From a virus, in IMG/VR virus record IMGVR_UViG_3300021368_000012, positions 1 through 27,804 of that record: 27,804 nt of DNA; one strand, given 5' to 3'. The notes beneath the pieces are model-generated. The model was not told where the DNA came from and made no database searches. It was given only the letters and a program-made list of their open reading frames with translations. A program made the position numbers and the translations under genes. Shown one piece after another: positions 6,375 to 27,303 of this stretch. How positions within the stretch are numbered: position 1 is the first letter of the stretch; each line of letters begins with the position of its first letter.

Positions 6375-7943
6375 ATGGCTATATTTAGAGGTGACGGTGG
6401 TGCAGGTGATTCCAATACGGATGCCACGCTATTAGCCGTTACAGAACAAGCTGTCATAGCTACTACGAAAGCAAGCGATGCAGCGGCCAGTGCTGTTGAA
6501 GCGGCTAACTCTGCAACCACAGCATCTACCAAGGCAACTCAGGCAGCTACATCTGCAACTGATGCGGCCAACAGTGCTTCAGGTGTTGCAGGGTATGCCA
6601 CTGCCGCAAGTAACTCAGCGACTGCCGCAGCTACTTCAGAGACTAATGCGGCCACTAGTGCCACAGCGTCCGCTACAAGTGCTACAGCAGCCAGTGCCTC
6701 TCAGACAGCCGCAGGAGCCTCTGAGACAGCTTCCGCTGCTAGTGCTACCACTGCTACCACTAAAGCCGCAGAAGCCGCTACAAGCGCAACCAGTGCGTCT
6801 AACAGCGCATCTACGGCTACGACTAAGGCATCAGAGGCTGCTACTAGCGCATCTAACGCTTCCACCTCTGAGAGCAATGCGGCTACGTCAGGATCTAATG
6901 CGGCAACATCAGCTACGAATGCTAGTGACTCCGCTACAGCATCAGCAGGTTCAGCAAGCGGTGCAGCTACTTCCGCTACTAACGCAAGCAACAGTGCTAC
7001 AGCGGCTAGTACATCAGAAACTAATGCCGCTAGTTCAGCTACAGCAGCATCTACGTCAGCTACTAACTCTGCTAACAGTGCTACTGCGTCAGCGACTAGT
7101 GCGGCAACGGCAACAACTAAGGCAAGTGAAGCAAGCACCAGTGCCACAGCAGCCGCCTCTAGCGCATCTACAGCGTCTACCCAGGCAAGCAATGCAGCCA
7201 CTAGTGCTACAGCGGCATCCACTGCTCAGACCAATGCAGAGACAGCAGAGACTAACGCAGAGACTGCTGAGACTAATGCGGCAGCTAGTGCAACAGCAGC
7301 GGCTAGCAGTGCTACGTCAGCGGCTACTAGTGCATCCAATGCCGCTAGTACATTAGCATCAGCGGCACTGAAGGCTAACAACCTGTCTGACTTAGCTAGT
7401 GCAAGTACAGCTAGGACTAACTTAGGCTTAGGCACTGCGGCAACTACAGCGTCTACTGACTACCTAGCCTCTACAGGCGGTACAGTGACAGGGACTGTGG
7501 AGCTTGTTAGTACAGACACTAGCTCCTCTGCTGCTCCTATTCTATGCCTGTATCGCAACAGTGCATCTCCTGACGATGGTGACTACTTAGGTCAGATTAA
7601 GTTCCAAGGAGAGAGCGACACAGGTGTAACAAGGCTATTTGCTAAGATTACTGCCAAGACTTCAGATGTCACTAACGGGTCAGAAGATGGCTTGATAGAG
7701 ACAGCAGTGAAGCAAAACGGCTCTAATGTTATTGTTTCTCGTCAGACAAGTTCAGCTTTAAAACTTATTAATGGTTGTGCTATAGAAGTAGATGGAACAG
7801 TGACAGCGACAGGCGGTACATCTACTAACTGGAATACAGCCTACGGTTGGGGCAATCATGCTTCAGCAGGTTATTTAACATCTTCATCAACTTTAAATGC
7901 AGACAACGTGACTACTGGTACGCTTGATGGCGGCACATACTAA
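6375..7943 (+). CDS. Tail fibre with Ala/Ser/Thr heptad-repeat shaft
   Basis: The 522-residue protein has three parts. A short N-terminal part (MAIFRGDGGAGDSN) may attach to the virion. A low-complexity shaft (about 35-330) is built from seven-residue units of the type xxSATxA. A C-terminal part starts at NNLSDLASASTARTNLGLG (about 336-354), a linker motif common in side tail fibres such as lambda Stf. Heptad Ala/Ser/Thr shafts in such fibres are thought to form trimeric coiled coils. The C-terminus ends in TLDGGTY, similar to the end of the small protein at 15092-15325. There is no S74 chaperone in this protein; the next gene has one. The ribosome site AGGAG precedes the ATG by eight bases. 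Confidence 0.85.
   Translation: MAIFRGDGGAGDSNTDATLLAVTEQAVIATTKASDAAASAVEAANSATTASTKATQAATSATDAANSASGVAGYATAASNSATAAATSETNAATSATASATSATAASASQTAAGASETASAASATTATTKAAEAATSATSASNSASTATTKASEAATSASNASTSESNAATSGSNAATSATNASDSATASAGSASGAATSATNASNSATAASTSETNAASSATAASTSATNSANSATASATSAATATTKASEASTSATAAASSASTASTQASNAATSATAASTAQTNAETAETNAETAETNAAASATAAASSATSAATSASNAASTLASAALKANNLSDLASASTARTNLGLGTAATTASTDYLASTGGTVTGTVELVSTDTSSSAAPILCLYRNSASPDDGDYLGQIKFQGESDTGVTRLFAKITAKTSDVTNGSEDGLIETAVKQNGSNVIVSRQTSSALKLINGCAIEVDGTVTATGGTSTNWNTAYGWGNHASAGYLTSSSTLNADNVTTGTLDGGTY
6480..7365 (+). repeat. Degenerate 21-bp repeats encoding the heptad shaft
   Basis: Codons for Ala, Ser, Thr and Asn alternate so that the protein repeats every seven residues (for example STSETNA, ASSATAA, ETAETNA twice in a row near 7240-7280). 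The DNA repeat is degenerate, yet it leaves long stop-free stretches in other frames on both strands, and these are not genes. Confidence 0.8.
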
Positions 7944-26021: not shown

Positions 26022-26133
26022 AGTATTGCCTCGCTGTGGTGTCTTTGTTGCTGTGTCTGTTGTACGGATTTACGTACGCTAGTTGAGCCTTGCTCTCTTG
26101 CCTCTCACTTATCCAACTGCCAATCTTGCTCAT
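25948..26133 (-). CDS. Possible small protein (61 aa) overlapping the polymerase start
   Basis: The frame starts at ATG 26133, with GGAG ten bases upstream, and ends 74 bases inside the polymerase gene. The N-terminal part, MSKIGSWISERQESKAQLAY, looks like a normal soluble peptide; the C-terminal part that overlaps polymerase is Arg/Gly/Tyr-rich and less natural. Without this gene an 83-base gap would separate the zinc ribbon gene from the polymerase, unusual in this operon. The real product may be translated mainly to bring ribosomes to the polymerase start. Function unknown. Confidence 0.35.
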   Translation of the reverse strand: MSKIGSWISERQESKAQLAYVNPYNRHSNKDTTARQYYVDYVGHRNKYQSRQHLGSGYSGR

Positions 26134-26311
26134 ATTCTTGACTCTCCATTACGTAGTCTGATTCTGACCGTAGGTCTTCTCTGTCGATAGTGTCAATGTC
26201 GTCAGTGTAAAAGTAGCAGTCATTGCACATATCTAAATACTCACCGCTTTGTGCGGATTTCCTAGTAGACTCAAAGTCTGATAAAGCCTTGTTACACGCT
26301 ATACATCTCAT
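26105..26311 (-). CDS. Small zinc ribbon protein (68 aa)
   Basis: Two Cys pairs, C3/C6 (CIAC) and C29/C32 (CNDC), make a compact zinc-binding unit. Between them lies KALSDFESTRKSAQSGEYLD (residues 8-27), a pattern I recall in small proteins of T7-like and marine phages. The rest is acidic. The ATG shares a base with the methyltransferase stop (TAATG). Such proteins may bind nucleic acid or a replication partner; no function is established. Confidence 0.75.
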   Translation of the reverse strand: MRCIACNKALSDFESTRKSAQSGEYLDMCNDCYFYTDDIDTIDREDLRSESDYVMESQEYEQDWQLDK

Positions 26312-27303
26312 TATAACATCCTCTCGCTTAAAACTGAATATGCTTTTGCTGCTGTCTGCGGGACTACTGCGTTTCCCAAGAGCCTAAGTCTGTCCACCCT
26401 GTTTCTATTCCCATCAAGTGTTCCACCCAGTAAGGGTTTAGTTTTCCAAACTGTTCTTGGTTGTTCCCACTCGTGTTGTTCTTGACCTGGCCCTGACGGC
26501 CAAGCCTGTCTTTTTGCATTTTGGGACGATCCACAGTCTGGCCATGTACCTCTGGGTGATTCGCCAAGCCTAGTTGTCCGTAATTCGGTCTGTTGCTTAC
26601 CTTCTGAGCTTGCGCTACATCTGGAGTTGGCCACATTTTCTCCGCTGTCTCTACAGCATCCTTCAGCTTCGCTCCGTACCACGGGCTGTCGGGGTCTTTG
26701 CTGTGCTTCGATCTCCACTGTCCGTTGACTAGCTGTGTCGGGTAGCTTCCACCAGTTACATCGAACACCGTTGCGGTTGGCCATGATGTAAACTCGCTTT
26801 CGTTGGTGTGGTGCGCCAACTTCACGCGCTGAGAATATTCCCCACGCTGTGCTGTAACCATCTTCTTCCAAGTCGCTAATGACTGTGTTGAGTCCAAGCG
26901 AGATGTGGCCTTCGACATTTTCAAAGAAGCACTGAACAGGTCTAATTGTTTCAACGTGCTTTCTGATGTATGGCCAGAGGTGTCTTGGGTCATCTCCTCC
27001 TTTGCGCTTTCCTGCTGCTGAGAAAGGTTGGCAGGGATAACCGCCAGTGATGATGTCAACTCTGTCTCGAAACACTTCTGACGGGAAGGTTTTAATATCC
27101 GTGTAAATAGGTGCGGGAGGTAGCTGTCCTGTTTCCATTTTCGACACCAAGTTTGCAATGGCATAGGCTTCGATCTCCACATAAGCGACGACTCTATGTT
27201 CAAGCCCTGCAAGGTCAAGTCCTCTTTCGATTCCACCATATCCTGCACAAAATGCGATGACAGTGGGTAGTTCTTTGGTAGTATCCACATTGTTAATCTC
27301 CAC
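26311..27303 (-). CDS. dcm: C5 cytosine-specific DNA methyltransferase
   Basis: This enzyme transfers a methyl group from S-adenosylmethionine to C5 of cytosine at a specific sequence, probably to protect phage DNA from host restriction. Motifs in the 330-residue product are: I FCAGYGGIERGL (18-29), IV GGYPCQPFSAAGKR (87-100) with catalytic C91, VI ENVEG (128-132), VIII QRKRVYIMA (167-175), and X RLRLLGNAVVPQTAAKAY (305-322). The variable region between VIII and X (176-290), where the target recognition domain should be, is rich in Arg, Gln, Ser and Cys and looks unlike a folded domain. The start is GTG at 27303, two bases after the helicase stop, with AAGG upstream. No restriction enzyme gene is visible. 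See the overlapping frame at 26364-27290. Confidence 0.92.
   Translation of the reverse strand: MEINNVDTTKELPTVIAFCAGYGGIERGLDLAGLEHRVVAYVEIEAYAIANLVSKMETGQLPPAPIYTDIKTFPSEVFRDRVDIITGGYPCQPFSAAGKRKGGDDPRHLWPYIRKHVETIRPVQCFFENVEGHISLGLNTVISDLEEDGYSTAWGIFSAREVGAPHQRKRVYIMANRNGVRCNWWKLPDTASQRTVEIEAQQRPRQPVVRSEAEGCCRDSGENVANSRCSASSEGKQQTELRTTRLGESPRGTWPDCGSSQNAKRQAWPSGPGQEQHEWEQPRTVWKTKPLLGGTLDGNRNRVDRLRLLGNAVVPQTAAKAYSVLSERML
26364..27290 (-). CDS. Overlapping 308-codon reading frame inside the methyltransferase gene (candidate overprinted gene)
   Basis: This frame is +1 to the methyltransferase frame and covers nearly the whole gene. It starts at ATG 27290-27288 with GGAG (27301-27298) seven bases upstream; that GGAG lies in the methyltransferase's own first codons. 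Its second half (residues ~165-308) looks like a real protein: SWPTATVFDVTGGSYPTQ (169-186), KLKDAVETAEKMWPTPD (208-224), NRPNYGQLGLANHPEV (233-248) and LNPYWVEHLMGIETGWTDL (284-302). From memory these match a phage protein type found beside or fused to C5 methyltransferases (WPTP and LNPxWVEWLMG motifs). The first half is Ser/Lys/Gln-rich and less convincing. It could be translated, be a relic of a frameshift, or be reached by frameshifting. Confidence 0.45.
   Translation of the reverse strand: MWILPKNYPLSSHFVQDMVESKEDLTLQGLNIESSLMWRSKPMPLQTWCRKWKQDSYLPHLFTRILKPSRQKCFETELTSSLAVIPANLSQQQESAKEEMTQDTSGHTSESTLKQLDLFSASLKMSKATSRLDSTQSLATWKKMVTAQRGEYSQRVKLAHHTNESEFTSWPTATVFDVTGGSYPTQLVNGQWRSKHSKDPDSPWYGAKLKDAVETAEKMWPTPDVAQAQKVSNRPNYGQLGLANHPEVHGQTVDRPKMQKDRLGRQGQVKNNTSGNNQEQFGKLNPYWVEHLMGIETGWTDLGSWETQ

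Follow-up and report, generated by a model that had tools for sequence, protein, structure and literature searches.

A methyltransferase gene containing a second open frame

The DNA analysed here, referred to as the window, comprises an entire IMG/VR virus record (27,804 bases), with PHROGs matches to terminase, portal, major head, primase-helicase, DNA polymerase, exonuclease and ribonucleotide reductase proteins. Its replication module includes a C5-cytosine DNA methyltransferase gene that adjoins primase-helicase and DNA polymerase; the chain read from its main frame is called alpha, and a second chain, beta, is read from an open frame that starts 13 nt into alpha and overlaps 93% of it (Table 1). 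An initial sequence-only reading had described a 308-codon +1 frame inside a 330-codon gene, with its own ATG and a GGAG site seven bases upstream while the main frame uses GTG, and had pointed to WPTAT, WPTPD, YGQLGLANHPEV and LNPYWVEHLMGIETGWTDL in its product, and all of these were present. Directly 3' of the methyltransferase gene lies a 68-aa cysteine-rich ORF with CxxC pairs (26105-26311, minus strand), for which a search for a family match found none.

Table 1. Features of the overlapping methyltransferase genes in the window
Feature	Position	Strand	Details
alpha, C5-cytosine DNA methyltransferase chain	26311..27303	-	330 aa, GTG start; motifs I-VIII and X, no motif IX in frame
beta, chain in the +1 frame, wholly inside alpha	26364..27290	-	308 aa, ATG start; PHROG_1008 match, homologues, selection tests
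GGAG, Shine-Dalgarno-like, 7 nt 5' of beta ATG	27298..27301	-	within the first two alpha codons
alpha motif I, FCAGYGG	27232..27252	-
alpha motif IV, catalytic PCQPFS	27019..27036	-
alpha motif VI, ENV	26914..26922	-
alpha motif VIII, QRKR	26794..26805	-
alpha recognition-region element WPSGPGQEQHEWEQPR	26455..26502	-
alpha motif X segment RVDRLRLLGNAVVPQTAAKAYSVL	26329..26400	-	helices ordered in the AlphaFold2 model
beta WPTAT motif	26769..26783	-
beta WPTPD motif	26619..26633	-
beta motif IX-like segment LNPYWVEHLMGIETGWTDL	26385..26441	-	conservation and profile alignment to canonical motif IX

The second frame compared with chance

The figure of about 4 in ten million that had been offered for a chance frame of this length does follow from a simple stop-frequency model, but a codon-aware null, in which the same gene is shuffled synonymously, gives a weaker result. 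By this measure 6.35 +1 stops are expected across the beta span of the window gene, and the probability of finding zero is ~0.0002, which still does not describe chance. An accidental long nested ORF does occur in the same genome: a tail-fibre-like gene (6375-7943) contains a 292-aa +1 ORF (6478-7356, plus strand) for which synonymous shuffling predicts zero stops, so that it was rejected as a true gene and considered an artefact of Ala/Ser/Thr repeats; a search for a family match to it found none.

The possibility that beta, too, arose by accident from base composition and codon use was examined across homologues. A profile of the alpha C-terminus served to collect loci from viral contigs, and any that beta also retrieved were removed, so the sample was not chosen by the frame being scored. 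In the span from motif IV to the motif X site (7640 codons, 36 loci), the +1 frame contained 0 stops against 104.6 expected after synonymous shuffling and was open in 36/36 loci, while the +2 frame showed no avoidance (443 stops, 408 expected). Nor was avoidance seen in 12 canonical single-chain methyltransferases, which contained 75 stops in +1 (82 expected) and 124 in +2 (140 expected). Stops in the second frame of relatives, which the sequence-only reading had proposed to look for, were thus absent from the alpha-selected loci. This comparison of homologues is decisive: the open beta frame is not due to chance, and an origin from base composition is ruled out by the stop test.

Distribution of the beta family and conservation of its start

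The beta protein matches PHROG_1008 (E=4.9e-23), which carries the label DNA methyltransferase, and homologues were found in 140 phage records, so the database families anticipated for the second frame do exist; single-sequence searches of Pfam and NCBIfam with beta returned nothing useful, and no Pfam match. Among anchored loci drawn from GenBank, IMG/VR and GTDB, the LNPxWVExLMG segment of beta was in +1 relative to the PCQ of alpha in 83/83 and 76/76 loci that had both anchors. This places beta at +1 in 159/159 scorable loci of viral, bacterial and archaeal origin, the cellular ones coming from genomes of many phyla and including a few archaeal MAGs, and no beta without its alpha was found in any anchored locus (83 + 76). 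The start of beta is conserved as well, since a start codon was aligned in 35/40 relatives (30 ATG, 4 GTG and 1 TTG) and a Shine-Dalgarno-like site was present in 29/40.

Existing annotations treat these loci in various ways. Both frames are annotated in Paenibacillus phage Diva and Escherichia phage K1ind2, only alpha in phage C75C1, only beta in Synechococcus phage Ssp-JY39 (L002; alpha omitted), and only an 81-aa alpha-side piece in uncultured phage KM23-C739 (L003). Four plasmid loci were viewed; two of these stand among clear phage genes, and no restriction endonuclease was annotated near any of the four. One Roseovarius MAG chromosome has five apparently identical two-frame loci (L154, L155, L157, L158 and L159), for which repetition of a prophage or an effect of assembly is the probable cause. 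On plasmid pAP1 of Paenibacillus polymyxa (L283, 4619-4900) a single alpha gene is underlain by two +1 LNPxWVECLMG segments, and a separate short ORF holds the second of them; the arrangement looks like a duplicated motif IX segment. At three loci (L046, L055 and L083) the alpha frame is interrupted or short while beta is still open; these could represent sequencing errors, decay or further split variants.

Selection in both frames

Constraint imposed by beta on the synonymous sites of alpha was assessed in 14 loci with the beta start lying within alpha (family II). The fraction of identical four-fold alpha sites was 0.36 upstream of beta, 0.60 inside it and 0.29 after the beta stop, with random agreement at ~0.26-0.27; the difference between inside and upstream was 0.246 (0.166-0.324 on bootstrapping over loci). 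The reduction of synonymous change that had been sought in the main frame is strong and coincides exactly with beta, agreement being close to the random level on either side of it.

In the clade that includes the window, beta-frame identity exceeded a synonymous null across almost all of beta. It peaked opposite alpha residues 289-300 (beta 0.82, null 0.24, alpha 0.45), was also elevated in the N-terminal half of beta (0.65 versus 0.30 for the null opposite alpha residues 37-48), and fell to the null after the beta stop. The alpha chain was conserved across motifs I-VIII and X, and the intervening recognition region was variable in both frames. Because beta identity exceeds its null and alpha is conserved over its motifs, both frames are constrained, as had been suspected from the window. 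With selection in both frames and a protein family of its own for the second one, alpha and beta are a true overlapping gene pair. Stop avoidance, four-fold-site constraint, beta-frame identity across relatives and the database families matching the second frame all contradict an accidental ORF and, despite the example of the tail-fibre gene, leave that explanation with practically no probability.

Division of the methyltransferase motifs between the two chains

The proposal of a full set of catalytic motifs in the main frame did not survive closer inspection, since motif IX is missing and alpha holds motifs I-VIII and X only. Alpha matches PF00145 at 125.7 bits over residues 15-260 and reaches 94.6 bits against TIGR00675, under the cut-off of 100.65, and over residues 15-195 only. 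A single-chain enzyme as described by TIGR00675 has all motifs, including IX, in one frame and a score over the cut-off, and alpha shows neither of these properties; motif IX was absent from the alpha frame, where the profile alignment of alpha at that site gave E 0.63.

A resemblance to canonical motif IX, such as RRLTPLECERLQGFPDGWT in L181, is evident in LNPxWVExLMGxPxGWTDL, the conserved end of beta, of which LNP and LMG are invariant in 60 sequences. When a beta profile was aligned along the whole canonical methyltransferase, the LNP segment landed exactly on canonical motif IX, with E 0.033 for full beta and 0.0013 for the beta end; after removal of gappy columns the value was E 0.012, which was matched by 1/200 column shuffles, at another site. 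These statistics are modest because the motif is short, and they suggest that the LNP segment of beta is motif IX of the methyltransferase.

Further evidence for such a division comes from a set of split relatives (L032, L051, L059, L060, L067, L099 and L284), in which alpha ends before the motif IX site and beta carries motif IX followed by an LGNGVVP motif X. Profile alignment of the split-form betas to canonical IX plus X gave E 0.00021. In most of the split relatives alpha ends at, or shortly past, the WPSGPGQEQHEWEQPR element, and in several its stop comes right after the conserved WPxRPGxxQxxWExPR element; the two frames still overlap heavily. Parts of the methyltransferase have thus moved between frames, a pattern that is difficult to account for if the two chains do not belong to a single enzyme.

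These observations also bear on the possibility that beta is a genuine nested gene for an independent protein (for example, one with a counter-defence or regulatory function) and that alpha is self-sufficient. In favour of this are the lack of a Pfam match for beta and, in the window clade, the conservation of its N-terminal half, to which nothing in methyltransferases corresponds. However, motif IX is missing from alpha and is where the most conserved part of beta aligns, the betas of split relatives also carry the motif X lost from their alphas, and beta was never found apart from alpha in an anchored locus, so this explanation is improbable.

Still less probable is a model in which the second frame is reached from alpha by programmed ribosomal frameshifting, producing a single-chain methyltransferase with motif IX and requiring no separate initiation. 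In the split forms, a shift after motif VIII would indeed yield the canonical order I-VIII-IX-X, but the window would need a second shift back to reach motif X. In addition, a start codon and Shine-Dalgarno-like site are conserved at the beginning of beta, the conserved N-terminal part of beta would be left untranslated by a shift after motif VIII, and in family II the onset of constraint coincides with the beta start, which lies inside alpha.

Predicted structures

The AlphaFold2 model of alpha shows a confident catalytic domain (residues ~10-185) and motif X helices (~305-330), and pLDDT is high for most of residues 10-185 and 310-330. Two stretches, 191-265 and 284-304, are disordered in it. 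The model matches the solved C5 methyltransferases HhaI and HaeIII across ~170 residues. A profile of the alpha C-terminus found no match in the PDB. The model of beta alone was poor (mean pLDDT 57.6), and a fold search of the PDB with this low-confidence model returned no match, which for such a model carries no meaning; weak cyclin matches of a beta profile to PDB sequences were taken as chance. A poor model is what would be expected of a chain that folds with a partner, though it proves nothing. Because beta models poorly and matches no PDB fold, structural complementarity of the chains is argued from what alpha lacks.

A probable two-polypeptide methyltransferase encoded by one stretch of DNA

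Taken with the motif division, the overlapping genes very probably encode a two-polypeptide C5-cytosine methyltransferase, with both subunits read from the same DNA in two frames and a motif plan like that of M.EcoHK31I. The suggestion that one segment encodes two recognizable protein types therefore holds insofar as the overlapping pair is real, but its members are most likely parts of one C5 methyltransferase and not unrelated proteins. In the proposed mechanism, SAM binding and catalysis would fall to the alpha domain that bears motifs I-VIII, PCQ among them, and alpha would also contribute the motif X helices. Translated from its own ribosome-binding site and start within alpha, beta would bring in the motif IX segment and, probably, a large share of the small domain that recognizes the target. 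The conserved WPxRPGxxQxxWExPR element suggests that alpha also contributes to the recognition region. The two chains would then assemble into one active enzyme, most likely a heterodimer, and alpha alone should be inactive. For an orphan gene situated among the replication genes of a phage, the most likely role is to methylate the viral DNA so that host restriction is evaded.

Comparison with known systems

The plan of two subunits read from overlapping frames is already known from one bacterial enzyme, M.EcoHK31I, which acts at YGGCCR as part of a restriction-modification system and has an alpha of 309 aa and a beta of 176 aa, the small-subunit gene being nested in the large-subunit gene in another frame. 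M.AquI (CYCGRG) is also a two-polypeptide C5 methyltransferase. In M.EcoHK31I, motifs I-VIII and X are in the large subunit, to which the predicted recognition domain was assigned, and only motif IX is in the small subunit; M.AquI has a catalytic chain plus a second chain with motifs IX and X (PMC3404938).

By this described motif division, the window resembles M.EcoHK31I, since its alpha has motifs I-VIII and X but not IX, its beta has IX, and beta is nested in alpha in a different frame. It differs in that beta is 308 aa long, covers 93% of alpha and has an N-terminal extension under selection, and in that the window enzyme is a phage orphan. The second chain of M.AquI carries motif IX, as beta does, but motif X is in alpha in the window, and the combination of IX and X in the second chain is found only in the split relatives, which have an AquI-like motif split but a long frame overlap. 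These split relatives bridge the EcoHK31I and AquI plans. The single-chain enzymes M.HhaI, M.HaeIII and Dcm (PF00145/TIGR00675) share the catalytic domain fold and motifs of alpha, but carry motif IX in the same chain.

Another out-of-frame ORF in a phage methylase gene is the ShiLan domain, an HNH endonuclease inside an actinophage methylase (PMC11855218). The arrangement is similar to that in the window, but the ShiLan domain is a mobile HNH insertion of patchy distribution, whereas beta is universal in its family. An origin of beta as a homing insertion of this type was rejected, as beta has no HNH match and the +1 frame is open in 36/36 alpha-selected loci.

Implications

A literature search of incomplete coverage found no paper on this phage-wide dual-frame family. 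As far as the available literature shows, new features include the near-total overlap (93% of alpha) and the conserved N-terminal extension of beta in the window clade, the wide spread in phages and prophage-like loci of many bacterial groups, and the forms that bridge the EcoHK31I and AquI plans.

A broader reading, possible though rather doubtful when taken as a whole, is that dual-coded C5 methyltransferases form a superfamily that is old, for the most part unannotated, and shared by the phages and prophage-like loci of many bacterial phyla. Within it, beta of the window clade would have gained an N-terminal domain that overprints nearly the whole alpha catalytic domain and has a function beyond motif IX, which may be subunit assembly, recognition of a longer site or anti-restriction activity, and single frameshifts would move motif X between chains, linking the EcoHK31I and AquI plans.

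For many C5 methyltransferases of phages and prophages, annotation as a single protein probably does not describe a chain that can function by itself, since the second frame encodes an essential motif. Gene callers often give one frame only, so functional annotation and cloning screens for specificity can be misled, as can the cloning of methyltransferases as a way around restriction. In addition, the family offers a large number of natural examples of fully overlapping genes in which both products form part of one enzyme, which makes it useful for studying the evolution of overlap and for the engineering of split methyltransferases.
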